Source: Bradyrhizobium sp. 132 (lineage in GTDB: Bacteria > Pseudomonadota > Alphaproteobacteria > Rhizobiales > Xanthobacteraceae). Taken from it: a stretch of 64,000 nt of DNA. Each line of letters starts with the position of its first letter. Position 1 is the first letter of the stretch. The position numbers and the translations under genes are program-made. Shown in pieces: positions 2,765 through 44,886 of the stretch. The stretch lies in NCBI RefSeq assembly GCF_023074185.1, contig NZ_JADPKY010000043.1, positions 62,001 through 126,000 of the forward strand. Reading direction: 5' to 3'. Under the pieces are notes generated by a model, which searched no databases, was not told the DNA's origin, and was given only the letters and a program-made list of their open reading frames with translations.

Positions 2765-3745
2765 CTAGTTCGATCCTGCGGCCGCAGTGGTGAAGCTGCG
2801 GTCGACGGCTTTGCTGACGTCGAGCTTCTTCGGCAGGATGCCGTAGCGCGTCGAGCGGTCGGAGGCTTCCTGCACTTCCTTCACGACGTTCTCGTCGATC
2901 ACGATCGGGCTGGTGCGCTGCGCGGTGTAGGCCGAGAGCAGCACGTCCTCCGGCAGCTTGGTTAGTTCGGCCGTGCTCTTGGCATATTCGCCGAGATGAT
3001 CCAGCGACCACAGCCGCGCCTTGTTCAGCCGCTGCACGAGGTCCTGCACCGCCGCGCGCTTGCTAGTGATGGCGCTGTCAGAGGCGACGATAAAGGTGAT
3101 GGTCGGCGTCAGGCCCTCACCATCGGCGATCACGCGGGCGTTGTCCTTGAGCGTCGCGAACGAGACGTAGGGCTCCCACACTGCCCAGGCATCGATCGAG
3201 CCCGCGACCAACGCGATCTTGGCGTCGACCGGGCCGAGCGGTGCGAAGGTCGCGTCCTCCAACTTGATCTGCGCCTTCTCCAGCGTGGCGTCGATCAGGA
3301 ACTGGCCCCAGCCGCCGCGCGTGCCGGCAAGGCGTTTTCCCTTGAGGTCGGCGGCCGATTTGATCGGCGAATCCTGGCGTACGAGAATGGCTTGTGTCTT
3401 CGCATCCGACCTTGTGCCGCCGATCGCCTTGATCGGCGCGCCGGCCGCGTAGACGGAAAGGAACGAGAGGTCGCCGGTGTAGCCGACGTCGAGTGCGCCG
3501 GCGTTGAGCGCCTCCAGGATCGGCGCAGCCGCGGGGAATTCCGACCATGCGATCTTGTAAGGCAGATCCTTCGCGTAGCCAGAGATCTCGAGCAGCGAGC
3601 GATTGCCGCCCTTCTGGTCGCCGACGCGCAGCACGATTGCGTCGGCTGCGAATGACGTCGCGGCCGTCGACAGGGTGATGGCGGCAGCAAGCAGCGATGC
3701 GGCGAGCCGGCGGGTGACGGAATGGTGGAGGGAGTTGATGCTCAT
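2765..3745 (-). CDS. SsuA/TauA-type ABC substrate-binding protein
   Basis: A 326-residue periplasmic binding protein of the aliphatic sulfonate/nitrate/taurine family. A Sec signal peptide ends near ATSFAADA, and the mature protein opens with IVLRVGDQKGG, the family's first strand. Later segments FPAAAPILEALNAGALDVG and GSIDAWAVWEPYVS line the ligand cleft in this family. The ATG at 3745 is chosen because it directly precedes the signal peptide. It is divergent from the sulfonate-type operon at 4.2-10.4 kb and is similar to the binding protein at the end of that operon (both share LRVGDQKG and EFPAAAP). No permease or ATPase lies on its own strand, so it probably feeds the divergent one. Confidence 0.85.
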   Translation of the reverse strand: MSINSLHHSVTRRLAASLLAAAITLSTAATSFAADAIVLRVGDQKGGNRSLLEISGYAKDLPYKIAWSEFPAAAPILEALNAGALDVGYTGDLSFLSVYAAGAPIKAIGGTRSDAKTQAILVRQDSPIKSAADLKGKRLAGTRGGWGQFLIDATLEKAQIKLEDATFAPLGPVDAKIALVAGSIDAWAVWEPYVSFATLKDNARVIADGEGLTPTITFIVASDSAITSKRAAVQDLVQRLNKARLWSLDHLGEYAKSTAELTKLPEDVLLSAYTAQRTSPIVIDENVVKEVQEASDRSTRYGILPKKLDVSKAVDRSFTTAAAGSN

Positions 3746-4220
3746 GTTGCCTGTCTTGGTGCTTTGCTCACGACGCGTGAGCGAACGATCCAGCGAGACG
3801 ATCAAGTCTATGGTCGCGCGATGCGCAGTCAATGAAATGGCTAACCGTATTGCGCGCGCGATGGGCAAGGACGTTTTAGCGAGGCGCTGCTTTCGAGAAC
3901 GTGCGGTGTGCGCCACTGATGCTGCGCAAGAATGAAGCAAGAGAGGGAGTAGGCCAGCACGCTGCCAACCGATGCATCGGAAGAAATCCTTTCATCGTCC
4001 CGGACGCGCCGATGGAGAGAATGACTTCGCTTCGCGCAACATTCGAAAATCCATTTCATTGACGATGCGGCGAGCACGCCGCATGATTTGCGCATCGCAT
4101 CAACGAGGCGCAGCAGGCGCCGGCGAAAGGATTTTCTCTCAACGCAGCTCCGCACGGAACAGGCGCAACGCAAACTGTTGTGCAGATGGCGGAGCCGTGC
4201 CAGCGCAGGAGTGGGGACGG
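3746..4220. other. divergent intergenic region, no gene
   Basis: 475 bases between two divergently transcribed binding-protein genes. No coding frame with family resemblance is seen. It should hold the promoters and operator(s) of both transcription units; no operator could be assigned by eye. Confidence 0.5.
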
Positions 4221-31102: not shown

Positions 31103-31178
<76 letters not shown>

Positions 31179-31239: not shown

Positions 31240-31870
31240 TTACAGTTTTGTTCTTGCTTCGAGCTTGAGCACGGCAGCTTCTGCGAGCTGAATGTCACGT
31301 CCGGGATAGTGTGCATCGAGAATAGCCTCGACGTCCTTCAGGGAGTGACCGGTGACTGCGGCAATCTGTGGCACACTAGCGCCGGCGATCGCCAACCGAA
31401 CCACCGCCGTGCCGCGCAGGTCATGAAATGTCAGGCCCTCGATACCGGCGCGCTCGCAAGCCTTTGCCCACGATGTCCGAAAACCGTCGGACGTCCAAGG
31501 CCGGCCCAGCGTGTTCGTCAAGATAAGGGGTCCCCGACTTTCGGTGGTGTCGAGTAGAGCTCGCAGAGGACCGCCGGCAGGCATTGCGACGCGCCGACTC
31601 CCTTCGACTGGCGAAGGCGAATGTAAGGGCTCTCGTAGGCCGACCAGGGCAGCCGCAACAGGTCGCCTTGCCTTTGTCCGCTCCACAAAGCCAAGACCAG
31701 CGCCAGCTGGATCTCGGGGGAGCCGACTGACAGGACTGCGGCGATGTTCTGCTCGGTCCAGATCTTGTCTCGGCGGTCTGCGACATAGAGCCGACCACCG
31801 CGCTCACAGGGGTTGCTGGTAATGATGCCGCGGTCTTTCCCAAAGGACAGAATGCGCGCCGGTACCGCTA
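31240..31870 (-). pseudogene. tyrosine-type site-specific integrase remnant
   Basis: C-terminal two thirds of a phage-type integrase. The upstream frame reads ITSNPCERGG, DRRDKIWTEQNIAAVLS and LALWSGQRQGDLLRLPW (first catalytic Arg). A one-base shift near 31,602-31,610 then moves to the frame with RRVAMPAGGPLRALLD, HDLRGTAVVRLA (HxxR), TGHS and LDAHYPGRD (catalytic Tyr). The N-terminal arm-binding part is absent; sequence identity stops near 31,870 where an SDR remnant begins on the other strand. It lies 61 bases from tRNA-Lys, as expected for the island's own integrase. Confidence 0.85.
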
Positions 31871-31912: not shown

Positions 31913-32659
31913 ATGGATCTCAAGCTCGCCGGCAAGGTCGCGCCTGTCACCGGTGCCAGCGTCGGCCTCGGCGGCGGGATCGCGCAGATGCTTGCCGAAG
32001 AAAGGATGTTGCCTCGCAGCCGTGGCCCAGCGAGAAGACCGCCTAAGAACGCTGCGGAAGAGATTGCGGTTATCGGATGCGAGCGGCCGTTGGTCATTGT
32101 CGCGGATATCACGCAGCACGACGCAGCTACGAGGATCAGAGATGATGTGGTTGCCGCTTTCGGCCGACTAGACATCCTCGTCAACAATGCCGGCGGTTCG
32201 CGGCCCTTCGACGGGCTCGGCACGCGTCAACAATGGGATGAGGCTATGGCGCTTAATTTCATGCCGGTCGGGAACTCGCCCATGCCTTCGTACCCATAAT
32301 GCAAGCACAGAAATTCAGCCGGATCATCAATCTGACGGGAGGCGACGATCCGTTGGCGTTGAACGGCGGCATTCCCCCAATGGGGCCACCGACATCTGGG
32401 CAAAGTCGCCTTCCCGCGTTGTCGGCAAGGATGGGATCACGGTCAATTCAATCCCGCCAGGTCGGCTGCACTCCGAGCAGATCGACCAGAATTGTTGCCA
32501 GGCTCAGCGCAAATGGGTCGCTGAAAATTGTCCTGCCGCTATATCGGCGAACCGGAAGATCTCGCGGTGCTGGTCGCCTTTCTTGCCTCACCACTTGCCC
32601 GTTACATCACGGGACAGGTAGTCCACGTTGACGGAGGTGCGCGACGCTTCTCGCGCTAG
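31913..32659 (+). pseudogene. short-chain dehydrogenase/reductase remnant (frameshifted)
   Basis: The start MDLKLAGKVAPVTGASVGLGGGI has a degenerate GxxxGxG cofactor site, followed by LDILVNNAGGSRPFDGLG. The frame breaks near 32,270; RIINLTGGDDPLALNGG continues in another frame. It shifts again to NGATDIWAKSPSRVVGKDGITVNSIPPGR, and a last shift leads to the usual C-terminus [20 protein letters not shown] at a stop at 32,657. At least three frameshifts; the catalytic Tyr-x3-Lys region is also altered. Non-functional. Confidence 0.82.
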
Positions 32660-33258: not shown

Positions 33259-33846
33259 CTAACCCGTTGCGCGTGGGAGCATGCCGCTTGCCGTAATCTC
33301 TGCCGAAAGCTCTTCGATCGTCTTGCGTTGCTCCATGGCGGCTTTTCGGATCAGCGCAAAGGCGGCAGGTTCGGCAAGCGCATGCGAATGCATCACCTGG
33401 AGAACGGCGGCAAGTACGACACGACGTGACCGCAGGCGCTGCTCGAGTTTGAGGATCTGTTGCTTCAATTCGCTTGTGCGTTCGTTTCGCTCGAATGCCA
33501 TGACGAGCGCGGCATAGATGCCGGCCGATCGTAACGGCTTGACTAGGAACGAAGCTGGGTCGAGTTCGAACACCAGCTTCAGGCGGCTTGGGGTCTCGGT
33601 GCCGAGCAGCGCGATGACAGGGGACCGCGCCAGGAACGCGCGTTGCGCCGCCTGCAGCAAGGGCAGGAACTCGTCGTCGATCAGCGACAGATCCGGTGCG
33701 AAGTCGACGGGCTCTCCTGGTGTCCATGCAACGCACTCGATTCCGAGGCGCTCGAACTGGCGTCGCACGATGGTCACATCGCGTTCGTCCTTAATGGCGA
33801 CGAGCGCCCTGCGTCCGCGCAGCGAAAATGAAGACGGTCTGCTCAT
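33259..33846 (-). CDS. amiR: AmiR-like ANTAR-domain antiterminator
   Basis: A 195-residue protein with a pseudo-receiver N-terminus (RALVAIKDERDVTIVRRQFERLG; LIDDEFLPLLQ) and no clear phosphoacceptor set. A linker coiled coil (ERTSELKQQILKLEQRL) leads into a C-terminal ANTAR domain from about residue 130 to 185 (VLQVMHSHALAEPAAFALIRKAAMEQRKTIEEL). In Pseudomonas AmiR, ANTAR binds nascent leader RNA and prevents termination, held inactive by AmiC. Here the gene overlaps the AmiC-like gene by 4 bases (ATGA), and a leader terminator precedes the divergent amidase operon. Confidence 0.85.
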   Translation of the reverse strand: MSRPSSFSLRGRRALVAIKDERDVTIVRRQFERLGIECVAWTPGEPVDFAPDLSLIDDEFLPLLQAAQRAFLARSPVIALLGTETPSRLKLVFELDPASFLVKPLRSAGIYAALVMAFERNERTSELKQQILKLEQRLRSRRVVLAAVLQVMHSHALAEPAAFALIRKAAMEQRKTIEELSAEITASGMLPRATG

Positions 33847-35018
33847 TTCACAACCCGCAAATGCGGCGCATTCGGCAATGCGCCGCCCGCCGAGGTTTCC
33901 CTCGATGGACTGGCGACAACGTCGAGCTGCGTCAGGTAAGGATCAGGCTTAACAGGCGCGTCGGCTTCCCAGAAGATATCGAACTGTCCTCGCGGATTGG
34001 ATACGGCAAGCCGCGGTGTAAGGACGCAATGATTGTTGCCGCCGTCGATCCACACCGGTCCTTGCGGCGAATTGTAGCGATATCCCGCCGCGGCGCGCTG
34101 CACCTCGGCAATGTCGGACGTGCCCGCGCGCTGCAGCGCGCGCGCCAGCAGATAGACTGCGACATAGGCGGATTGCCCGTCAACGGAGGGGCTGCTGTCC
34201 TCGCCATGGCGCGCCTTCCAGCGCGCTACGAAGGCGCGGTTCTCCGGCAGCCGGATGCTCTCGAAATAGGCCGACGACGTGATACAGCCGGCCGATGCCG
34301 GCCCGACGATCGCCAGTTCCGGCTCGCACAGGCTACAGCTCAGCATGGGAATCTCCAGCCCGGCAGCCTTGGTGCCGGCGTGAAATGCGCGGATGAAGTC
34401 GTAGCTCGAGCTTCCGACCAGCGTATTGAACACGATCGGCGGTTTGCGGCGAACAATCTCGTCGACGATGTGACCGACGGCGCTTTCGCCGAGCTCGAGC
34501 AGCCGCTCGGCGAGGATGTGGCCATCTGCCGCGCTGACCAGTTCACGGGTGACGCGATTGGTCTCCCACGTCCACACGTAGTTGGAGCCGACGCAGAAGA
34601 TTTCCCGTGACAGATTGTCGAGCACGTAGCGGACCAGCGGCAGCACGTTGTGATTGGGCGAGGCGCCGACATAGATCACGTTGTCCGAGCACTCGAAGCC
34701 TTCATAGCGGGCAGGATACCAGAGCAGGCGATCGGTGCGCTCCACGATGGGAAGCACCTGCTTGCGCGAGGCCGAGGTGTAACAGCCGATGATGTGCTCG
34801 ACGCCGACATTGCGAATGAGGTCGTCACAGACCGTGTGATATTCGGAGACGATGCCGCGGGGATCGCGAATATGGGGCGCGATCGCGAAGTCGAACTCCG
34901 CCTGGCTGTTGATCTCGTCGACCGCCATCATCGCGCTCTTGAGGATCTCGCGGCCCATTGCCTGATAAGGCCCGGACTGCGAGCAGATGATGCCAACGGG
35001 AACATACGGCTTGGTCAT
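33843..35018 (-). CDS. amiC: AmiC-like cytoplasmic ligand sensor (type I binding-protein fold)
   Basis: A 391-residue type I periplasmic-binding fold protein without a signal peptide: it starts directly MTKPYVPVGIICSQSGPYQAMGRE, so it should stay in the cytoplasm. Segments typical of AmiC/UrtA: VEHIIGCYTSASRKQVLPIVE, LLWYPARYEGFE (ligand-site Tyr region), CVGSNYVWTWETNRV and GQSAYVAVYLLARAL. It is transcribed divergently from the amidase operon and followed by AmiR with a 4-base overlap. By analogy with Pseudomonas AmiC it sequesters AmiR until an amide binds. Confidence 0.85.
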   Translation of the reverse strand: MTKPYVPVGIICSQSGPYQAMGREILKSAMMAVDEINSQAEFDFAIAPHIRDPRGIVSEYHTVCDDLIRNVGVEHIIGCYTSASRKQVLPIVERTDRLLWYPARYEGFECSDNVIYVGASPNHNVLPLVRYVLDNLSREIFCVGSNYVWTWETNRVTRELVSAADGHILAERLLELGESAVGHIVDEIVRRKPPIVFNTLVGSSSYDFIRAFHAGTKAAGLEIPMLSCSLCEPELAIVGPASAGCITSSAYFESIRLPENRAFVARWKARHGEDSSPSVDGQSAYVAVYLLARALQRAGTSDIAEVQRAAAGYRYNSPQGPVWIDGGNNHCVLTPRLAVSNPRGQFDIFWEADAPVKPDPYLTQLDVVASPSRETSAGGALPNAPHLRVVK

Positions 35019-35425
35019 TGACGGCTTTCGATCGCGTAACGCGAAGATGAAATCATCATCGCCGATGACAGCGCAAGTGGCTTGCCGTTTTGCTGCGCAG
35101 AACTCTCGAAATTTAGGCAGACAGCATCGTTGACAACGCGATGGGCAGGTCCTTAGACTTTTCTCCTACAGGGTGACCTGTCGAACCTCGCGTGCGCCGA
35201 TCTGGCCGATGACGTCCAGCTCCTTGCACTGAGTGCTTTGTTCGATCACGGACCCTAAAGCGAAGATCATAGCCGCGGCATTTGAGCCATTCGTCACCTC
35301 ATTCGGGAGGGACGGGTGGCTTTTTTCGTTTGCCGCCGGGAAAGCTGGCGATGCGTCCGCGTAGCCAGAACGGTGACGCATGTGCGAGACGGCGATGTGT
35401 CATGTGAGCGGGAGGATGAAGAGCG
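35019..35425 (+). promoter_or_regulatory. divergent promoter and untranslated leader of the amide operon
   Basis: 407 bases between the divergent sensor gene and the first amidase. No gene is present. It contains a strong intrinsic terminator (35,286-35,326) about 100 bases before the amidase start. Just upstream is a 3-bp hairpin with a six-base loop, GGC-ATTTGA-GCC (35,277-35,288), whose 3' arm is also the first part of the terminator stem. That overlap is what ANTAR target RNAs show, but the loop lacks the usual G at position 4 and no first partner hairpin was found. Confidence 0.6.
35286..35326 (+). terminator. leader terminator upstream of the amidase operon
   Basis: The stem arms GCCATTCGTC and GACGGGTGGC pair along 10 bases with two G-U pairs, and enclose an inner CCTC/GAGG hairpin; TTTTTT follows directly. 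It lies inside the leader in front of the amidase gene, where it would abort transcription of the operon unless bypassed. This fits control by the AmiR-type protein encoded next door. Confidence 0.8.
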
Positions 35426-36826
35426 ATGGCGGAAACGGATCTCCACTATCTCGGGCTCGTCGACATCGGGCGAAAGATCCAGGCGAAGGACCTGTCGCCG
35501 GTCGAAGCGACCAAGGCGATGCTCGGGCGGATCGAGAAGCTCGACGGCAAGCTCAAGAGTTTCGCGCATGTGATGGCTGACTCGGCGCTTGCCGACGCCG
35601 CCGTGGCCGAGAAGGAAATCGCCTCCGGCAAGGTCAAAGGACCGCTGCATGGGGTGCCGGTGGCGGTCAAGGATCTCTGCTGGGCCAGGGGCGCGCCTGC
35701 CGCGCACGGCATGACGATCCATCACGATTTTCGTCCGACTGAGGACGCAACGGTGGTTGCGCGGCTGAAGGAGGCCGGCGCAATCATTCTTGGTAAGCTG
35801 CAGCAGACCGAAGGAGCTTACGCCGATCATCATCCGAAGATTGATCCGCCGAAAAATCCGTGGAACGCGGATCTTTGGCCCGGCGCATCCTCGAGCGGTT
35901 CCGGCGTCGCTACCGCGGCTGGCCTCTGCTTCGGCTCGCTCGGCACCGATACCGGCGGTTCAATCCGCTTTCCGTCAGCGGCCAACGGCGTCACCGGGCT
36001 TAAACCGACCTGGGGACGAGTCAGCCGCTACGGCGCTTTCGAACTTGCGGCGACGCTGGATCACATCGGCCCGATGGCGCGGAGCGCCGTCGACTGCGGC
36101 GCAATCCTCGGCGTCATCGCGGGGCAGGATCCCAGGGACACGACGTCGGTGCCGCTGCCTGTGCCCGACTATCTCGCCGGTCTCTCCGGCGACCTGCGCG
36201 GTGTGACGATCGGCGTCGACCGGCGCTGGACCAGCGAAGGAACCGATGGCGATGCGGCGAAGGTCCTGACCGAAGGGTTGCGTGTGGCGGCCGATCTCGG
36301 CGCGAAGATCAATGAGATCATTTTCCCCGATCCCAAGGCGGTCATCGACGACTGGTTCCCGCTCTGCGGCATCGAGGTCGCCGTCGCGCACGAAGACACC
36401 TATCCGGCGCGCAAGGACGAGTATGGCCCGGCGCTCGCGGGTCTGCTCGATCTCGGCCGGCAGCAGTCCGGCATGGACTACCAGAAGATCGTGCTTCGCC
36501 GCGAGGCATTTCGCGGCGCGGTCCGTGTCCTGTTCGAGACCGTCGATCTCGTCGCGGTGCCGGCACAGGCGTTCGCCGCGCCCACGCTCGCCAAGATGGC
36601 GGCGCTCGGCGAGGACGCCTCGCTGATCGGCGGACTGCTGCGCTTCACGTGTCCATTCGACATGACGGGAAGTCCGACCGTGACGCTGCCCGGCGGGTTC
36701 GCGGCGAATGGCGGTCCGGTCGGCTTCCAGTTCGTTGGTCGTCATTTCGACGAGGCCGGACTTGTGCGGGCGGGCGACGCGTTCCAGCGCGTCACCGACT
36801 GGCACAAACGTCATCCCGGGGTCTGA
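35426..36826 (+). CDS. amidase-signature family amidase (first of two)
   Basis: A 466-residue amidase-signature enzyme. The Ser-cisSer-Lys triad is visible: Lys82 in VPVAVKDLC, cis-Ser about 155 in GASSSGSGVATAAG, and nucleophile Ser179 in GTDTGGSIRFPS. It hydrolyses a carboxamide to acid and ammonia; the substrate is not determined. First gene of the operon, 100 bases after the leader terminator; the next gene follows after 17 bases with a GAGGAG ribosome site. Related to the second amidase at 43,483 with identical triad spacing, so the two are likely duplicates with diverged specificity. Confidence 0.9.
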   Translation: MAETDLHYLGLVDIGRKIQAKDLSPVEATKAMLGRIEKLDGKLKSFAHVMADSALADAAVAEKEIASGKVKGPLHGVPVAVKDLCWARGAPAAHGMTIHHDFRPTEDATVVARLKEAGAIILGKLQQTEGAYADHHPKIDPPKNPWNADLWPGASSSGSGVATAAGLCFGSLGTDTGGSIRFPSAANGVTGLKPTWGRVSRYGAFELAATLDHIGPMARSAVDCGAILGVIAGQDPRDTTSVPLPVPDYLAGLSGDLRGVTIGVDRRWTSEGTDGDAAKVLTEGLRVAADLGAKINEIIFPDPKAVIDDWFPLCGIEVAVAHEDTYPARKDEYGPALAGLLDLGRQQSGMDYQKIVLRREAFRGAVRVLFETVDLVAVPAQAFAAPTLAKMAALGEDASLIGGLLRFTCPFDMTGSPTVTLPGGFAANGGPVGFQFVGRHFDEAGLVRAGDAFQRVTDWHKRHPGV

Positions 36827-36843: not shown

Positions 36844-37839
36844 ATGTCCGAAGACTGGTTGAAGACATCAATCATGACCAAGCGCGCGGTCGCCAAAGGC
36901 GCGACTGGCGCGACGCATAGCCTGACGATCGAGCAGCAGGGCGGCTTCCATTATGTCTACGGCCCCTATGCCAAGCCGACCCTGTCGATCGACCCGGGTG
37001 GGATCGTTGTCGTCGAGACGGAAGATGCCTTTGGCGGCGTGCTCACCAGCGAAAGCGACAGCCCAACCGCCAAACTGAATTTCCCCTATCTCAACCCGCA
37101 ATGCGGACCGATCGCCGTCAAGGGCGCCAAGAAGGGCGATTGTCTCGCGATCTATATCCGCGACGTCGAGACGCGGGGTGAACAGCCGGCCGGTACGACC
37201 TGTATCATTCCGGAATTCGGCGGGCTGGTTGGAACAAGCTCGACGGCGCTGCTCAATCCGCCGCTGCCGGAACGCGTAAAGAAACTGCATGTCGACAGGA
37301 ACGGCATACGCTGGAACGACAAGATCACGCTGCCCTACGAGCCGTTCATCGGAACCATCGGTGTCTCGCCGGAAATCGAGGCCATCTCGTCGCTTCAGCC
37401 TGATTACCACGGCGGCAACATGGATCTGCCCGACGTCGCGCCAGGTGCGATCATCTATTTCCCCGTTCATACCGACGGCGGGATGCTCTATGTCGGCGAC
37501 TGTCACGCGACCCAGGGCGACGGCGAACTCTCCGGCGTGGCGCTGGAGCAGCGCGCCACCGTTACATTGCAGATCGACCTGATCAAGAACTGGAGCTTCG
37601 CCTGGCCCCGGCTCGAGACTAAGGACTTCATCATGACTATCGGCAGCGCGCGTCCGCTCGAGGACGCGGCACGCATCGCCTATCGCGAGCTCGTGCGGTG
37701 GATGGCGGCCGATTACGGCTTCGACGAGATCGACGCCTACATGCTGCTGAGCCAGGCCGGCCGCATGCGCCTCGGCAATATGGTCGACCCCAAATACACG
37801 ATGGGGGCATCGATCCTGAAGAATTACCTCAAGCCATGA
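36844..37839 (+). CDS. acetamidase/formamidase (FmdA/AmdA) family protein
   Basis: A 331-residue protein of the FmdA_AmdA family. Recognised segments: VVVETEDAFGGVL, KGAKKGDCLAIYIRDVE, MDLPDVAPGAIIYFPVHTDGGMLYVGDCHATQGDGE (the conserved metal and active-site core around residues 190-225), and the C-terminal DEIDAYMLLSQAGRMRLGNMVDP. It hydrolyses formamide, acetamide or a similar short amide, releasing ammonia. It is in the same operon as two amidase-signature enzymes and an ABC importer, so it may act on a product of the first amidase (inference). Confidence 0.88.
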   Translation: MSEDWLKTSIMTKRAVAKGATGATHSLTIEQQGGFHYVYGPYAKPTLSIDPGGIVVVETEDAFGGVLTSESDSPTAKLNFPYLNPQCGPIAVKGAKKGDCLAIYIRDVETRGEQPAGTTCIIPEFGGLVGTSSTALLNPPLPERVKKLHVDRNGIRWNDKITLPYEPFIGTIGVSPEIEAISSLQPDYHGGNMDLPDVAPGAIIYFPVHTDGGMLYVGDCHATQGDGELSGVALEQRATVTLQIDLIKNWSFAWPRLETKDFIMTIGSARPLEDAARIAYRELVRWMAADYGFDEIDAYMLLSQAGRMRLGNMVDPKYTMGASILKNYLKP

Positions 37840-37873: not shown

Positions 37874-39115
37874 ATGACTTCGAGACGCAAGTTAGGGATG
37901 GTTTTACTCGGCGCCATGCTCGGCACAGCGGCAGCGATCAGTGTTGCCCAGGGGGCCGAACCGCCGTTGAAAGTGGGTTTGCTCGAGGACGTGTCCGGCG
38001 ATCTCGCCTTCATGGGCATGCCCAAGCTGCATGGATCTCAGCTGGCGGTCGAAGAGATCAACAAGAGTGGCGGCATCATGGGGCGGCAGATCGAGCTGAT
38101 TCATCTCGATCCGCAGGGCGACAATGCGCGTTACCAGGAATTCGGCCGACGCCTGCTCAATCGCGACAAGGTCGACGTATTGATCGGCGGCATCACTTCG
38201 GCCTCGCGCGAAGCGCTGCGTCCGATCGTCGACCGCACCTCCACGCCTTATTTTTACACCAACCAGTATGAAGGCGGTGTCTGCGACGCCAGCATGATCA
38301 GCATGGGTGCGGTGCCTGAGCAGCAGTTCTCGACGCTGATACCGTGGATGGTCGAGAAGTTCGGCAAGAAAGTCTACGTCATCGCCGCCGACTACAATTT
38401 CGGTCAGATCTCGGCAGAGTGGAACCGCAAGATCCTGAAGGATCTCGGCGGTGAGGTAGTGGGCGAAGAGTTCATTCCGCTCGGTGTGTCGCAGTTCGCG
38501 CAGACGATCCAGAACATCCAGAAGTCGAAGCCGGATTGGCTGCTCACGATCAATGTCGGTGCCGCCCAGGATTCGTTCTTCGAGCAAGCCGCTGCCGCCA
38601 ACCTCAACCTGCCGATGGGGTCTTCGATCAAGGTCATGCTCGGCTTCGAGCACAAGCGGTTCAAGCCGCCGGCGCTCAACAACATGCACGCAACCGCGAA
38701 CTGGTTCGAGGAAATAGACACGCCTGAAGCGACCGAGTTCAAGAAGCGCTGGCACGCCAAATTCCCGGATGAACTCTACATCAACGACATGGGCTATAAC
38801 GCCTACAATGCACTCTACATGTACAAGGCGCTGGTCGAGAAGGCGAAGTCGACCAAGCTCGATAACATGCGGAAGGTGATCGCAACGGGTGATGCTTGCA
38901 TCGATGCGCCCGAAGGCAAGGTCTGCATCGATCCGAAGAGCCAGCACACATCGCACCGCATGCGCCTGATCTCGGTCGGGCCCAAGCACGAGGTGACGGT
39001 GGAGAAGGACTACGGAACGATCCAGCCCTACTGGCTGGGCGAGATCGGGTGCGATCTCACCAAGAAGAACGACAAGGATCAGTACACGCCGAGTCATCTT
39101 CCCAAGAAGTCGTGA
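37874..39115 (+). CDS. UrtA/AmiC-type ABC substrate-binding protein
   Basis: A 413-residue exported binding protein. A Sec signal ends near SVAQGAEPP; then LKVGLLEDVSGDLAFMGMPKLHG and AVEEINKSGGIMGRQIELI. TPYFYTNQYEGGVCDASM and YVIAADYNFGQISAEWNRKIL are typical of the short-chain amide/urea-binding group (FmdD, UrtA, AmiC). It shares its fold with the cytoplasmic sensor at 33,843 but has a signal peptide. It delivers the operon's substrate to the permeases that follow. Confidence 0.88.
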   Translation: MTSRRKLGMVLLGAMLGTAAAISVAQGAEPPLKVGLLEDVSGDLAFMGMPKLHGSQLAVEEINKSGGIMGRQIELIHLDPQGDNARYQEFGRRLLNRDKVDVLIGGITSASREALRPIVDRTSTPYFYTNQYEGGVCDASMISMGAVPEQQFSTLIPWMVEKFGKKVYVIAADYNFGQISAEWNRKILKDLGGEVVGEEFIPLGVSQFAQTIQNIQKSKPDWLLTINVGAAQDSFFEQAAAANLNLPMGSSIKVMLGFEHKRFKPPALNNMHATANWFEEIDTPEATEFKKRWHAKFPDELYINDMGYNAYNALYMYKALVEKAKSTKLDNMRKVIATGDACIDAPEGKVCIDPKSQHTSHRMRLISVGPKHEVTVEKDYGTIQPYWLGEIGCDLTKKNDKDQYTPSHLPKKS

Positions 39116-39214
39116 GGTGCCGCGGGCACGGATTTTGCTCGTGATGTGCGTCACGATCTTGAACAAGGCCGGCGCCGCAACGATGCGGCGCCGGGATCGG
39201 CAAGGGGGATCAAG

Positions 39215-40081
39215 ATGTCGGCTGAAGTATTCTCCGTGTTCTATCAGTTCGCCGACGTGTTTGCGTTCCTCATTCTTTCGGCCGCCGGCCTCGCCATTGT
39301 GTTCGGCATGATGGGCGTCATCAACATGGCCCACGGCGAGTTCATCATGTGTGGTGCCTATGTGACGGTTGGCCTTGTGAATCTCGGTGTGCCGCTCGCG
39401 ATTGCCCAGATGCTGGCCGCGCTGACGGCGGGGCTCATCGGTGTCCTCGTCGAGTTCCTGGTCGTGCGGCGTTTCTACAAGCGGCCGCTGGATTCGTTGC
39501 TCGCGACCTGGGGGCTCAGTCTCATCGTGACGCAATCGATGCTCCTGATTGTCGGGTCTGCCGTACGGGGGATCGGAACGCCGGAGGGAAGCTTCGCAAT
39601 CGGCGGTTATTCGTTTTCGACCTATCGTCTGGTGCTGTTCGGTTGCGCGGTGGCCGTGCTGGGCGGTCTCTACATCATCTTCATGAAGACGCGGTTCGGA
39701 GTGATCGCCCGCGCGACTATGCAGAACGCCGCGATGGCGAAGGCGCTGGGCGCGCGCACAGGCCGCATCTATGCGATCAGTTTCGGGATCGGCACCGGCC
39801 TCGCCGGGCTCTGCGGGGCGCTCTACGCGCCGACCATGACGCTGATTCCGACCATGGGTGCGACATTCGTGGTCGAAAGCTTCGTCACCGTCGTGATCGG
39901 AGGAGCGAACGTGCTGCTTGGAACGGCGCCGGCCGCGGTCTTCCTGGCGATGATCCGGATGGCGCTGAACGCGAGCTATGGGCAGATCATCGGTCAGATC
40001 GGCATGCTGGTGGCTGTCATCCTGATCATTCGGGTGTTGCCCGAAGGGCTCTCTAGCGTGCTGGTCCGCCGTGGGCGCTAA
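39215..40081 (+). CDS. LivH/UrtB-type ABC permease
   Basis: A 288-residue permease with the LivH hallmark LSAAGLAIVFGMMGVINMAHGEFIMCGAY and the conserved ATMQNAAMAKALGARTGRIYAISFGIG loop. The ATG at 39,215 is preferred (AAGGGGGA upstream); the longer frame from 39,146 lacks family sequence before it. About 8 membrane spans. Second subunit is the next gene, 6 bases downstream. Confidence 0.88.
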   Translation: MSAEVFSVFYQFADVFAFLILSAAGLAIVFGMMGVINMAHGEFIMCGAYVTVGLVNLGVPLAIAQMLAALTAGLIGVLVEFLVVRRFYKRPLDSLLATWGLSLIVTQSMLLIVGSAVRGIGTPEGSFAIGGYSFSTYRLVLFGCAVAVLGGLYIIFMKTRFGVIARATMQNAAMAKALGARTGRIYAISFGIGTGLAGLCGALYAPTMTLIPTMGATFVVESFVTVVIGGANVLLGTAPAAVFLAMIRMALNASYGQIIGQIGMLVAVILIIRVLPEGLSSVLVRRGR

Positions 40082-40087
40082 GGGGAA

Positions 40088-41167
40088 ATGTTGATGTTCA
40101 AGCTGCTGGAAGGCCCACAGACGCTCGGACGCGGCAAGATCTTCTGGTCATGCTTCCTCGCCGTGCTCGCGGGTGCGCTGACTTATCCGCTGTTCGCCGA
40201 TTCCTACGACGTGGGCAATTTCGCTTACTTCCTGATCTGGATCTTCATGGCGCTCGGCCTCTGCCTGATGTGGGGCTATGGCGGCATGCTGTCGTTCGGC
40301 CAGACCTTGTTCTTCGGCATTGCCGGCTATGGCTATGGCGTGCTCGCCATCAACATGGGCGGCGGCACTGCGACGATCGCCGCACTCGTGCTCTCGGTTG
40401 TCCTCGCGATGTTGGCGGCGGGAATCCTCGGCTACTTCATGATCTGGGGTGGGATCAACGGCATCTTCTTCGGCATCGTGACGCTGTCCGCGACGCTCGT
40501 GCTTGCCTTCTTCCTTGGTCAGACCGCTGGGCCGGAATGGCACATCGGCCCGGCGCGGTTGAACGGCTTCAACGGCATGAAGGGCATGGACCCGCTGACC
40601 GTGGGTGACTTCTATATCGAGGGATCGGCGCTCTATTACACCATGATCGCGCTGATCGTGATCGTCTATCTCGCGCTGCGCATGCTGGTCAATTCGGGGA
40701 TCGGCAATGTCATCGTGGCAACGCGCGAAAATCCCCAACGCGCGGAGATGCTGGGCTATGACGTCCGGAAATACCAGCTGCTGACATTCGTGATCGGCAG
40801 CGGCCTCGCGGGCCTCAGCGGCGCACTCTACACGTCCTGGGGACAGTTTATCACGCCCTCCAGTATCGGCCTGCCGGCAGCCGCGATGCCGATCGTGTGG
40901 GTGGCCTTCTCCGGGCGAAACGATCTGACGGCGACCCTGGTCGGGTCGTTCCTGTTGCTGTTCGGCTTTCAGACAATCACGGTCTACAGCCAGCAGGCCG
41001 CGCTGGTGCTGATGGGCGCGCTGCTGCTCGCCACGGTGATGCTGGCGCCGCAGGGGTTTGTGCTCGGAATTGGCAAGCTTGCCGCCGACTGGTGGGGTGG
41101 GCGCCGACGGCGCGATGATGGCGCCGTCGCGGAGGAGGCCGGTCGCTTACAGCCGGAAGAATCCTGA
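40088..41167 (+). CDS. LivM/UrtC-type ABC permease
   Basis: A 359-residue permease: LGLCLMWGYGGMLSFGQTLFFGIAGYGYG is the LivM/UrtC signature region, and VATRENPQRAEMLGYDVRKYQLLTFVIG is the conserved cytoplasmic loop. The C-terminus is a basic tail (WWGGRRRRDDG). It starts 6 bases after the preceding gene with AGGGG upstream. It forms the translocation pore with the LivH-type protein. Confidence 0.88.
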   Translation: MLMFKLLEGPQTLGRGKIFWSCFLAVLAGALTYPLFADSYDVGNFAYFLIWIFMALGLCLMWGYGGMLSFGQTLFFGIAGYGYGVLAINMGGGTATIAALVLSVVLAMLAAGILGYFMIWGGINGIFFGIVTLSATLVLAFFLGQTAGPEWHIGPARLNGFNGMKGMDPLTVGDFYIEGSALYYTMIALIVIVYLALRMLVNSGIGNVIVATRENPQRAEMLGYDVRKYQLLTFVIGSGLAGLSGALYTSWGQFITPSSIGLPAAAMPIVWVAFSGRNDLTATLVGSFLLLFGFQTITVYSQQAALVLMGALLLATVMLAPQGFVLGIGKLAADWWGGRRRRDDGAVAEEAGRLQPEES

Positions 41168-41169
41168 TC

Positions 41170-41889
41170 ATGGCGCTGGTCGAGGTCAAAGGCGTATCCA
41201 AGCGCTTCGGCGGATTGACCGCTGTCTCCGATGTCGATCTTACGGTCGACGCGGGCGAGGTGCACTGCCTGATCGGTCCCAACGGTGCCGGCAAGAGCAC
41301 GTTGTTCAAGCTGATCGTGGGTCTTTACCCACCCACCCAGGGCAGCATCCTGTTCGATACCGTCGACATCACCGCCGAGCGTCCATATGCGCGGGTGCAA
41401 CGGGGCATGAGCATCAAGATGCAGGCTCCGAGCGTGTTCAAGGAACTTCCGGTCCGGCAGAACATTCAAATCGCGCTCCAGGAGCGATTGTCCGGGGCGG
41501 AACGCATCACAGAGGAGGATCGTCTGCTGACGCTGCTCAATCTCGGCCCGGACAGCGAAAAGCTCGCGGGGGCACTGTCGCACGGCCAGCAGCAATGGCT
41601 TGAAATCGGGATGGCATTGGCGCTGAAGCCGCAGCTCCTGTTGCTGGACGAGCCGACCGCCGGCATGTCTCCCGAGGAAACCTTCAAGACCGGGGAGTTG
41701 ATCAAGTCGTTCAATGCCGAAGGCATGACTGTGCTTGTCGTCGAGCATGACATGGCCTTCGTGCGCCAGGTCGCCCAGCGCGTCACGGTGCTGCATCTCG
41801 GCAAGATATTTGCGCGCGGCAATCTCGAAAACATCCTGCAGGACGAGAAGGTCGCGGAAATCTATCTCGGTAAAACCCATGCCCACTGA
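41170..41889 (+). CDS. LivG/UrtD-type ABC ATPase
   Basis: A 239-residue ATPase: Walker A GPNGAGKST, signature LSHGQQQWLEIGMAL (the UrtD/LivG variant), Walker B LLLLDEPTAGM and switch His VVEHDMAF. Two bases separate it from the permease gene, and its 3' end overlaps the next ATPase gene by 11 bases. Confidence 0.9.
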   Translation: MALVEVKGVSKRFGGLTAVSDVDLTVDAGEVHCLIGPNGAGKSTLFKLIVGLYPPTQGSILFDTVDITAERPYARVQRGMSIKMQAPSVFKELPVRQNIQIALQERLSGAERITEEDRLLTLLNLGPDSEKLAGALSHGQQQWLEIGMALALKPQLLLLDEPTAGMSPEETFKTGELIKSFNAEGMTVLVVEHDMAFVRQVAQRVTVLHLGKIFARGNLENILQDEKVAEIYLGKTHAH

Positions 41890-42589
41890 TCGGATTCTTG
41901 ACGTATCGGATCTATGGGCGGGATACGGCGCGACGCCGATCCTGCAGGGTGTCACCATGTCGGTCTCGCGCGGCGAGATCGTCGGCGTGATCGGCCGTAA
42001 CGGGGTCGGCAAGTCGACCCTGATGCGGTGCCTGATCGGCCTGCTGCAGACTTGGCGCGGCACGATCAGCTTCATGGATCAGGACGTCACAAAGCTCGAA
42101 GCCGACGCGCGGGCGAGGGCGGGCTTCGGCTACATCCCGCAGGGGCGCGACGTGTTTCCGCAGATGACCGTTGAGGAAAACCTCCAGGTCGGCGAGTTGA
42201 TCGGCGGTCCCGACGGTAAGAAGCTGCCGGAGCTCGTCTATGAGTATTTTCCGCGGCTCAGGGAACGCAGGCGGCAGGTCGCGGGGACCATGTCGGGCGG
42301 CGAGCAGCAGCAGCTCGCCATCGGCCGCGCGCTGATCGGCAATCCATCCTTGATGATCCTGGACGAACCGTCTGAGGGCATCCAGCCCTCGATCGTCCAA
42401 CACATCTGCGGGGCGCTGAGATCGTTCCGGAACGAGCTCGGCACTACGATCATCTTCGTCGAGCAAAATCTCGACACGATCCTGGCGATCGCCGAGCGTT
42501 GTTACATCATGGAGAAGGGCAAGATCACGCAGTCGCTGGCAGGCGGCGAGGTCAACGAGCAAAATGTCCGCGAGCAGCTTCTGCTCTGA
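41879..42589 (+). CDS. LivF/UrtE-type ABC ATPase
   Basis: A 236-residue ATPase: Walker A GRNGVGKST, Q-loop FGYIPQGRDVFPQMTVEENL, signature MSGGEQQQLAIGRAL, Walker B LMILDEPSEGIQPS and VEQNLDT. DEPSEGIQPS is characteristic of LivF/UrtE proteins. The ATG at 41,879 lies within the end of the preceding gene, giving tight coupling. Completes the five-part importer. Confidence 0.9.
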   Translation: MPTDRILDVSDLWAGYGATPILQGVTMSVSRGEIVGVIGRNGVGKSTLMRCLIGLLQTWRGTISFMDQDVTKLEADARARAGFGYIPQGRDVFPQMTVEENLQVGELIGGPDGKKLPELVYEYFPRLRERRRQVAGTMSGGEQQQLAIGRALIGNPSLMILDEPSEGIQPSIVQHICGALRSFRNELGTTIIFVEQNLDTILAIAERCYIMEKGKITQSLAGGEVNEQNVREQLLL

Positions 42590-42635
42590 ACGGCCACGTC
42601 GCACGTTATAAGTCGTCAATAGGGAGGGAATGGAC

Positions 42636-43397
42636 ATGGATCTGGGACTCAAGGGAGCAAAGGTTCTCGTTACCGGCAGCACCAGGGGCATCGGCAAGGC
42701 GATAGCCGACACCTTCGCGGCGGAAGGCGCAGATGTCGGCATCTGCGCCCGCAACCAGGCCGACGTCGATAGTGCTGTCACCGCGATCAAGGCGAAAGGT
42801 GTTGCGGCGTTCGGCGGTTCGGTCGACGTCTCCAATGGGCCGGCGCTCAAGGTCTGGGTCGAGGATATGGCCTCGAAACTTGGCGGGATCGATATCGTCG
42901 TTGCCAATGTCAGCGCGCTGTCGATTGGGCAGGACGAGGAGAGCTGGGAGAAGGAGTTCTCCACCGACATGATGGGCACGGTGCGGCTGGTCAATGCGGC
43001 GATGCCGTATCTTGAGAAGAGCAAGGCCGCTGCGATCGTCACCATCTCCAGCGTGTCGGGCCGCGAGGTCGACTTCGCCAGCGGCCCCTACGGCACGTTC
43101 AAGGCTGCGATCATCCATTACACGCAGGGGCTCGCCTTCCAGCTTGCCGGCAGAGGCATCCGCGCCAACTCGGTCTCTCCCGGCAACACCTATTTCGAGG
43201 GCGGTGTCTGGAATCAGATCAAGGACGGCAATCCCGAACTGTACAACACCGCGCTGGCGCTCAATCCTACCGGCCGCATGGGAACGCCGCAGGAGATGGC
43301 GAACGGCGCTGTGTTCCTTGCCAGCAAGGCGGCGAGCTTCATCACGGGGACCAACCTCGTGGTTGATGGTGCCCTCACGCGCGGCGTGCAGTTCTAG
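42636..43397 (+). CDS. short-chain dehydrogenase/reductase
   Basis: A 253-residue classical SDR: cofactor site VTGSTRGIGKAIAD, NVSALS in place of NNAG, catalytic Ser in ISSVSGREVDF and YGTFK as the Tyr-x3-Lys pair. C-terminus GTNLVVDGALTRGV. The ATG at 42,636 has GGGAGG at 8 bases; the ATG at 42,630 is too close to it. Its place between transporter and second amidase suggests it oxidises or reduces the acyl or alcohol part of the imported amide (inference). Intact, unlike the SDR remnant at 31,913. Confidence 0.85.
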   Translation: MDLGLKGAKVLVTGSTRGIGKAIADTFAAEGADVGICARNQADVDSAVTAIKAKGVAAFGGSVDVSNGPALKVWVEDMASKLGGIDIVVANVSALSIGQDEESWEKEFSTDMMGTVRLVNAAMPYLEKSKAAAIVTISSVSGREVDFASGPYGTFKAAIIHYTQGLAFQLAGRGIRANSVSPGNTYFEGGVWNQIKDGNPELYNTALALNPTGRMGTPQEMANGAVFLASKAASFITGTNLVVDGALTRGVQF

Positions 43398-43482: not shown

Positions 43483-44886
43483 ATGTCAGCGGATCCAATT
43501 CACTACAAGTCGATCACCGAACTCTCCGAGCTGTTCCGCCGGGGTGAGCTCCTGCCTTCGAAAGTAACCGAGGCCATGCTGAGCCGGATCGCGAAGCTCG
43601 ATAGCAAGTTTTACGGTTACGCGCTCGTGCTTGCCGAGCGGGCCATGGCGCAAGCGAAGCGCTGTGACGCGGAGCTTGCCAAGGGCGTCTGGCGTGGACC
43701 ATTGCATGGCGTGCCGATCGGATTGAAGGATCTCTGCTACACCACGTTCGCACCGACGGCAGGCGGCACTACGATCCATGCCAAGTTCGTTCCGTCCTTC
43801 AATGCGACGATCGTGGACCGGCTCGAGCACGCCGGCGCCGTCACTCTTGGCAAGCTCAAGATGACCGAGGGCGCCTATACCAGCCACCATCCGAACGATC
43901 AGGCGCCGCTCAATCCCTGGGGTGTCGATTACTGGGTCGGCTCCTCGTCAAGCGGATCGGGCGTGGCGACCTCGGTGGGGCTCTGCTTCGGCTCGATCGG
44001 CAGCGACACCGGCGGCTCGATCCGGTTTCCGTCGGCGACCTGCGGATTGACCGGCATCAAGCCGACCTGGGGACGCGTCAGCCGCCACGGCGTCTTTCCG
44101 CTGGCGGACTCGCTCGACCATGTCGGGCCGATGTGTCGAAGCGCTGCCGACGCGGCGGCCATGCTCGGCGTCATCGCAGGTGCCGATGTCAACGACCCCA
44201 CGGCCCTGCAGGCGCCGGTGCCGAACTATCTGGCCGGCATCGATGACGGCATCCGGGGCGTACGGATCGGCGTGGACCGCAGCTACATCCAGGACGGGAT
44301 CGATCCGCAGGTGGTCGCTGCGTTGCTGGAAGCCGAACGCACGCTGGCAGCGCTCGGTGCCGATATCCGCGAGGTCAAGTTCCCGGCCTACGAGAAGCTT
44401 GTCAGCATGTGGATCCCGATGTGCTCGATCGAAACGGCGGAGGCGCACCTGGAGACCTATCCGTCGCGAAAATCGGAATACGGCCCCGATCTGGCGCAGC
44501 TGATCGAGCAGGGCAGGTCGATGAGCGGTATCGAGATCGCGCAGATCCATCATGAGCGACTGAAGTTCTGCGGAAGTCTCGCCGCCTTGTTCGGCGATAT
44601 CGACTTGCTGCTGATCCCCACAATGCCTGTGCCGATCCCGACGCTGGCCAAGATGGCCGAATACGGTGCCGATCCGAACGTGCTGCTCAGTATCCTGCGC
44701 TTCACCGCGGTGTTCGACTTCTCGGGCAGCCCCACTATCACGCTGCCGAACGGGATGGCGTCGGACGGCCTGCCGCTCAGCATGCAGCTGGTGGGTCCGC
44801 ATCTGTCCGAGGATGTGCTTGCCCGCGCTGGTCATGCCTTCCAGTCGGTAACGGACTGGCATACCCGGCGCGCGGCCATCGAATGA
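43483..44886 (+). CDS. amidase-signature family amidase (second of two)
   Basis: A 467-residue amidase-signature enzyme: Lys82 in VPIGLKDLC, cis-Ser about 155 in GSSSSGSGVATSVG, nucleophile Ser179 in GSDTGGSIRFPS. It aligns along its full length with the amidase at 35,426 (for example GLKPTWGRVSR versus GIKPTWGRVSR). Last gene of the operon; the gene-free stretch with the second palindromic site follows. Two paralogous amidases in one operon point to sequential or alternative amide substrates. Confidence 0.9.
   Translation: MSADPIHYKSITELSELFRRGELLPSKVTEAMLSRIAKLDSKFYGYALVLAERAMAQAKRCDAELAKGVWRGPLHGVPIGLKDLCYTTFAPTAGGTTIHAKFVPSFNATIVDRLEHAGAVTLGKLKMTEGAYTSHHPNDQAPLNPWGVDYWVGSSSSGSGVATSVGLCFGSIGSDTGGSIRFPSATCGLTGIKPTWGRVSRHGVFPLADSLDHVGPMCRSAADAAAMLGVIAGADVNDPTALQAPVPNYLAGIDDGIRGVRIGVDRSYIQDGIDPQVVAALLEAERTLAALGADIREVKFPAYEKLVSMWIPMCSIETAEAHLETYPSRKSEYGPDLAQLIEQGRSMSGIEIAQIHHERLKFCGSLAALFGDIDLLLIPTMPVPIPTLAKMAEYGADPNVLLSILRFTAVFDFSGSPTITLPNGMASDGLPLSMQLVGPHLSEDVLARAGHAFQSVTDWHTRRAAIE

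Follow-up and report, generated by a model that had tools for sequence, protein, structure and literature searches.

The leader of an amidase operon in the window (the whole 64,000-nucleotide stretch of Bradyrhizobium sp. 132 that was analysed) is very probably a transcription attenuator controlled by AmiC and AmiR, in which AmiR would use one hexaloop hairpin (P1) and then a second one (P2). Judged from sequence, this leader is a new variant of ANTAR antitermination, with its function deduced: a sensor appears to free a protein that opens an RNA stop signal, switching on amide-degrading genes. From homology, we infer ligand control and antitermination at this amidase operon.

The leader and its operon

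The leader examined is the gap of 407 bases between a divergent gene pair and the amidase operon. The features of the locus are as follows:
33259..33846, minus strand: AmiR-like antiterminator with pseudo-receiver, long helix and ANTAR domain (Pfam, alignment, AF2 model)
33843..35018, minus strand: AmiC-like cytosolic amide sensor (phmmer; predicted role)
35130..35159, plus strand: predicted promoter of the amidase operon, TTGACA-N18-TAGACT (scan and conservation; start expected at about 35166)
35171..35255, plus strand: long irregular hairpin with P1 at its tip (predicted fold; GGG/CCC; TCGAAC 35181-35186 with GTTCGA 35240-35245)
35202..35219, plus strand: P1 hairpin CTGG C C[GATGAC]G U CCAG (hexaloop 35208-35213; closing pair C35207-G35214; C-U mismatch 35206/35215)
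35277..35288, plus strand: P2 hairpin GGC[ATTTGA]GCC (hexaloop 35280-35285; 3' arm also in the terminator)
35284..35326, plus strand: intrinsic terminator (12 + 4 pairs, 35284-35322; T6 at 35321-35326)
35426..36826, plus strand: amidase of the amidase-signature family, operon gene 1 (domain match)
36844..37839, plus strand: formamidase/acetamidase family protein, FmdA_AmdA (domain match)
37874..39115, plus strand: urea/amide-type ABC substrate-binding protein (N-terminus signal-peptide-like by reading)
39146..41889, plus strand: ABC permeases (UrtB- and UrtC-like) and ATPase (UrtD-like) (domain matches)
41735..42589, plus strand: second ABC ATPase, in the UrtE-like place (start uncertain, probably near 41890)
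42630..43397, plus strand: short-chain dehydrogenase (domain match)
43486..44886, plus strand: second amidase, Pfam Amidase (start guessed; mechanical open frame from 42994)

According to the proposed mechanism, AmiC would hold AmiR when no ligand is present, and RNA polymerase would halt at the terminator. Binding of an amide (or urea or formamide) by AmiC would free AmiR, a dimer of which would engage the nascent RNA, the P1 hexaloop first and P2 next. With P2 held, the terminator would lose its 5' arm, and the amidase, formamidase and ABC transporter genes would be transcribed. P2 and the terminator are mutually exclusive because the 3' arm of P2 is part of the 5' arm of the terminator; the hairpin GGC-ATTTGA-GCC with this shared arm, described in the sequence-only reading of this DNA, is indeed found at 35277-35288. 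In the best fold of the terminator region (35282-35326), 35284-35295 pairs with 35311-35322 and an inner 4-pair hairpin is formed (-25.9 kcal/mol); the terminator is also picked up by a simple scan, and 99 nt separate its end from the amidase ATG at 35426. The same reading had placed a strong leader terminator with an inner hairpin and T6 about 100 bases before the amidase, which holds, except that the 10-bp stem it gave becomes 12 pairs in the best fold.

Two related amidases (35426-36826 and 43486-44886) bracket this one operon. On the other side of the locus, a tRNA gene (31103-31175, plus strand) is followed by a short Phage_integrase fragment (31240-31686, minus strand); lying about 1.6 kb from amiR, the two likely mark an old island border. 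Between 31913 and 32631 (plus strand), we found the start of a short-chain dehydrogenase (Pfam adh_short, 31913-32299) with more pieces apparently in other frames, a remnant that is probably a pseudogene.

Conservation of the leader hairpins

A scan of genome contigs with AmiC gave 75 loci, and a search of 296 family genomes found a match in 76, with 30 matches becoming loci, several of them sequence-identical to earlier loci; leaders were selected through amiC. We define the following classes: (i) class 1a, 65 of 107 loci, in which the same amidase is divergent from amiC (55 distinct leaders); (ii) class 1b, 9 loci with a different amidase, 30-33% identical, the tested member of which, L048, belongs to the same Pfam family; (iii) class 2 (L092-L107, same family), amiC-amiR-transporter operons with the leader ahead of amiC itself. 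The gene amiR directly follows amiC in all 74 class-1a and class-1b loci, being broken in L036. The comparison set comprised 62 distinct orthologous leaders of two operon types. One contig (L003), labelled as a Bryobacterales MAG, carries an AmiC 98% identical to that of the present Bradyrhizobium-like locus and is probably mis-binned.

A covariance model, R1, was built from 18 class-1a leaders and contained the P1 stem, the enclosing helix and the terminator, with no P2 pairs. R1 recovered all 9 held-out class-1b leaders, with rough E-values of 6e-9 to 4e-18 over 31 sources, as well as L053 (9e-7) and L067 (3e-6), both at the expected places; the remaining sources of different operon type among the 31 gave chance-level matches only. 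In the own 8.46-Mb genome, R1 has a single copy at E up to 10, at this locus, and the idea of a regulon was dropped since R1 matches nowhere else there. Among 149 family genomes, R1 matched in 9, in 6 of them beside amiC. Three weak matches (L143-L145, E 6e-5 to 0.01) lie over long open frames with no significant match to ten operon proteins, and are taken as chance. The sequence-only reading had looked to orthologous leaders for a conserved terminator and an ANTAR-type two-hairpin RNA, and the covariance and alignment comparison bears this out. The arrangement of terminator and hairpins is not a chance one, because the terminator, P2 and the promoter are conserved in orthologous leaders.

With regard to the two-hairpin target, that reading recognised P2 and overlooked P1, which lies 62 nt upstream of it. 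When 54 leaders are aligned with MAFFT, P1 shows an invariant A2 and G4 in its loop and an invariant closing C-G pair, a result independent of the regular expression by which P1 was placed in 61 of the 62 distinct leaders (for L045, a literal string served instead). Loop G4 is present in 62/62 leaders, and the mismatch beneath the closing pair is C-U in 60 and C-C in 2. Standard pairs occupy 90.2% of the P1 stem cells versus 74.0% (sd 1.2) in shuffled controls, a comparison in which seven pairs count as free evidence. The remaining three, inner ones, were partly selected, because the expression demanded G and C on each side (5' and 3') as well as a purine/pyrimidine at the fourth pair. Slid registers of the stem yield 25.5-44.0% standard pairs. 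Cells changed on both sides number 73 versus 24.2 in shuffles (42 distinct rows); both-side changes affect 8 of the 10 pairs, a count attained by 96 of 500 shuffles.

In 23 of 27 single-sequence folds, P1 caps a long irregular hairpin (the exceptions are L012, L022, L038 and L060). Among distinct class-1a and class-1b leaders, respectively, such folds contain an enclosing helix of at least 4 pairs in 39/52 and 9/9, the inner P1 stem in 41/52 and 8/9, and P2 in 29/52 and 6/9. The flanks forming the enclosing helix are complementary to one another, with a mean energy of -19.4 kcal/mol in class 1a and -16.8 kcal/mol in class 1b, versus -12.2 and -11.6 kcal/mol, respectively, for cross-class swaps. 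Flank energy falls under the 5th percentile of simple shuffles in 39 of 46 class-1a leaders, but in only 4 of 9 class-1b leaders, so the predicted long helix around P1 is only partly supported as real.

Covariation is uninformative on P2 because its GGC/GCC stem never varies. The P2 loop, counted in related, non-independent leaders, has G4 in 5/53 class-1a and 8/9 class-1b leaders, and A at position 1 in 52/53 and 8/9, respectively; all 48 class-1a leaders without G4 carry G5. The absence of G at position 4, which the sequence-only reading had pointed out as a possible variant of the RNA target, is accordingly a lineage feature across class-1a leaders. The loop of L049 (ATCAAA) contains no G. 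By eye, G5 was also seen in the Azospirillum and Rhodobacterales-type leaders L067, L071-L073, L076 and L077 (ATATGA, AATAGC, AAAAGC, ATTCGC, AATCGG and ATTCGC). Counted from the closing G of P1, P2 is 62 nt away in the window and 56-64 nt away over the 61 leaders measured. A classical P1 at most 14 nt from P2 was rejected, since RNAalifold of the class-1a and class-1b spacer gives no conserved hairpin except P2. Just 5' of P2 (window 35260-35276, and leaders L048, L051 and L066) there is a conserved stretch, GCGATAGATCATAGC-like in class 1a and CATYGATAGC in class 1b, which may reflect a protein contact or transient pairing. A further pairing is available in class 1a between GGCA, the 5' arm of P2, and a TGCC right after the terminator (window 35331-35334; 53/54 at 2 of 4 pairs).

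Class 2 is a related autogenous class. Of its 16 leaders, 15 were aligned; L094, the terminator of which was missed by the pattern, was left out (its P2 loop, AAAAGC, has no G4). Each of the 15 contains a hexaloop hairpin P1, a terminator-overlapping P2 and a middle hairpin, CCRRC/GYTGG, adjoining P2; no such conserved spacer hairpin was found in classes 1a and 1b. The middle hairpin has five base pairs in 15/15 leaders, one of the five and inner pairs being changed on both sides. The P1-P2 distance, here counted from where the 4-pair stem of P1 ends, is 58-65 nt, and G4 was counted by eye in 8/15 P1 loops and 14/15 P2 loops.

A further leader, L177, comes from the genome of the AmiR L146. It is of the amiE type: its frame 2964-4070 (minus strand) is an aliphatic amidase (NCBIfam 727 bits, cut-off 427). 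Read by eye in this one leader, P1 is CGCTG-C-C[AAAGCT]G-C-CAGCG, with a C-C mismatch under the C-G-closed hexaloop, and P2 is GGGC[AACAAG]GCCC, with 15 nt from the closing G to GGC. From the shape of this P1, it follows that the Bradyrhizobium P1 is of amiE design but located far upstream. A scan of L176-L178 for G4 loops with terminators, and inspection of L176 and L178, gained nothing.

The sensor, the ANTAR protein and loop recognition

The sequence-only reading had described a signal-less AmiC-like sensor and an ANTAR protein, transcribed divergently and overlapping by 4 bases, and coordinates, phmmer, Pfam and fold match all agree with it. The AmiC-like protein matches P. aeruginosa AmiC (phmmer, E 3.6e-62), and its N-terminus, examined by reading the sequence rather than with a prediction program, enters the first strand directly, without a signal peptide; its gene adjoins amiR, the two frames sharing 4 bases. 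The ANTAR protein has both domains of the AmiR subtype above the curated cut-offs: Pfam ANTAR (3e-10, 40.2 bits; cut-off 27.3) and AmiR_N (2.9e-7, 30.9 bits; cut-off 27.0). Its AF2 model (pLDDT 90.3) finds its best fold match in AmiR of the 1qo0 AmiC/AmiR complex, followed by RNA-bound EutV.

In EutV, according to PMC8934654, loop G4 is recognised by stacking of Tyr164 and hydrogen bonds from Arg142, Lys149 and Glu160. At the EutV contacts Arg142, Lys149, Glu160, Tyr164, Arg168 and Met172, the own AmiR has R, V, E, F, R and M, i.e., Lys149 is replaced by Val and Tyr164 by Phe; at the further contacts Lys147, Asn173 and Arg177 it has A, E and T. Lys149 is present in 27/27 top-scoring ANTARs of the phylum (30 loci, 3 left out as truncated by contig ends) versus 0/102 AmiRs of amiC loci (V 79, I 13, L 9, Q 1; 104 sequences, 2 not aligned, duplicates left in), a contrast that is biased because the first set was chosen as best-scoring. 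The other contacts are retained among the 102: Arg142 in 102, Glu160 or Asp in 101, Phe or Tyr164 in 101, Arg168 in 100 and Met172 in 102. In a pairwise alignment, P. aeruginosa AmiR retains the lysine. By eye, so do 4 of the 26 AmiR_N-type ANTARs taken from 30 loci in 398 genomes of the phylum (L146, L148, L149 and L158). The first three are amiC-linked, though more distant than the 102 AmiRs above; therefore, loss of Lys149, although common among AmiC partners, is not universal. For L158, no AmiC match was found within the examined stretch.

The other ANTAR protein of the own genome consists of a receiver and an ANTAR domain, has the canonical AKG lysine and adjoins an NMT1_2-family protein; we take this pair to be NasT and NasS. 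One candidate leader inspected for its target had no evident motif.

A strict coupling between loss of Lys149 and loss of G4 was considered and rejected: classes 1b and 2 mostly keep the P2 G4 without the lysine, and the amiE leader accompanying a Lys149-bearing AmiR lacks G4 in its P2 loop. Nor did residue 173, followed by eye, track the G4/G5 form.

The system resembles P. aeruginosa AmiC/AmiR-amiE (1qo0) in its cytosolic AmiC-like sensor adjoining an AmiR-like ANTAR protein and in a leader terminator overlapped by P2; the P1 design is shared with the amiE leader of L177, a relative not established as P. aeruginosa. It differs from P. aeruginosa amiE in the divergent gene order, in an operon of signature amidase, FmdA and urea-type ABC transporter, in P1-P2 spacing (62 nt here, 15 nt in L177) and in the ANTAR residue at 149 (Val here instead of Lys). 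Like the Enterococcus faecalis eut targets of EutV (PMC3369931, PMC8934654), the leader has a pair of hexaloop hairpins of which the second overlaps an intrinsic terminator; unlike them, it does not have A1 and G4 in both loops, a C-U mismatch breaks its P1 stem, its linker is about 60 nt compared to 5-12 nt, and no histidine kinase is involved. In the same genus, NasS/NasT of Bradyrhizobium diazoefficiens (PMC6759348) likewise has a sensor that frees an ANTAR protein whose target is leader RNA; the nitrate/nitrite signal and a different sensor are its own. A literature search, with most subscription journals outside its reach, found no paper on this amidase-leader system.

The ANTAR dual-hexaloop motif, as given in PMC3369931, calls for A at position 1 and G at position 4 of each loop, for 3 pairs or more and for a linker of variable length; eut linkers of 3 or 14 nt impair induction. 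Set against Ramesh 2012, P2 has 3 pairs, and P1 has 1 closing pair, a mismatch and then a stem; the window loops are G1/G4 in P1 and A1/T4 (G5) in P2; the linker is not a short one; and P2 does overlap an intrinsic terminator. These departures lend something to an unlikely account, in which P2 alone is the ANTAR site and P1 a separate element (for RNA stability, or the site of another protein): the spacing is far above that of EutV, P1 has a single closing pair above its mismatch, and the minimal EutV target has been redefined as a single hexaloop (PMC8934654). However, this account has to accommodate a P1 that occurs in every one of the 62 leaders with an invariant G4, a hexaloop hairpin at a similar distance 5' of P2 in 15 class-2 leaders (tempered by the scarcer P1 G4 of that class), and the same P1 shape near P2 in the L177 amiE leader.

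If AmiR uses P1 and then P2, as we prefer, the 62-nt spacing would need a folded spacer, because a linker 20 nt longer abolishes EutV antitermination (PMC8934654). A folded spacer (the long P1 stem or the middle hairpin) would bring the loops together or allow successive binding. It is possible, although we put it somewhat below an even chance, that alphaproteobacterial AmiC-linked AmiRs constitute a subfamily of ANTAR proteins that reads an RNA code of its own: no G4-contact lysine, a P2 with A1 and G4 or G5, and hexaloops about 60 nt apart with the gap bridged by such a spacer. Motif searches that fix A1/G4 and close hairpin pairs would probably miss or mis-score leaders like these. Because operons of different arrangement naturally space their hairpins 56-65 nt apart, they directly test whether an ANTAR dimer uses two hairpins jointly or successively, and a subfamily lacking Lys149 provides a natural contrast for studying loop recognition.

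Other modes of control and the transcription start

Attenuators governed by a leader peptide, by a riboswitch or constitutively are common, and short open frames do occur within the leader; a real terminator under control of one of these kinds is nevertheless quite improbable here. No Rfam family reaches its gathering score in the leader (three weak sub-cut-off matches bear eukaryotic RNA names), leaders with GACGAC have lost the ATG, located in the P1 loop, of a 7-codon frame, and the P1/P2 core is retained although class 1b has a different amidase, 30-33% identical, as its first gene.

Over 8 kb, a simple scan picks out 2 promoter-like sites, where chance alone would give 1.9; the case for the promoter therefore rests on conservation. 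TTGACA is found at the corresponding place in 54/55 class-1a and 9/9 class-1b distinct leaders. At 18-nt spacing, the -10 element is TAGAAT or TAGACT in 48 of those 54 class-1a leaders, and only CACAAT in class 1b (8/9). Because the window has TTGACA-N18-TAGACT at 35130-35159 with a conserved TTGACA, a start of transcription downstream of 35326 appears unlikely; a hairpin with no regulatory purpose upstream of such a start, for which the weak class-1b -10 element might be cited, is scarcely credible given the TTGACA conserved upstream and the base-pairing conserved across the leader.

The sole TTGACA miss is L056 (Bradyrhizobium barranii subsp. apii), in which amiC is split by an insertion of about 1.4 kb (L056 4185-6795).
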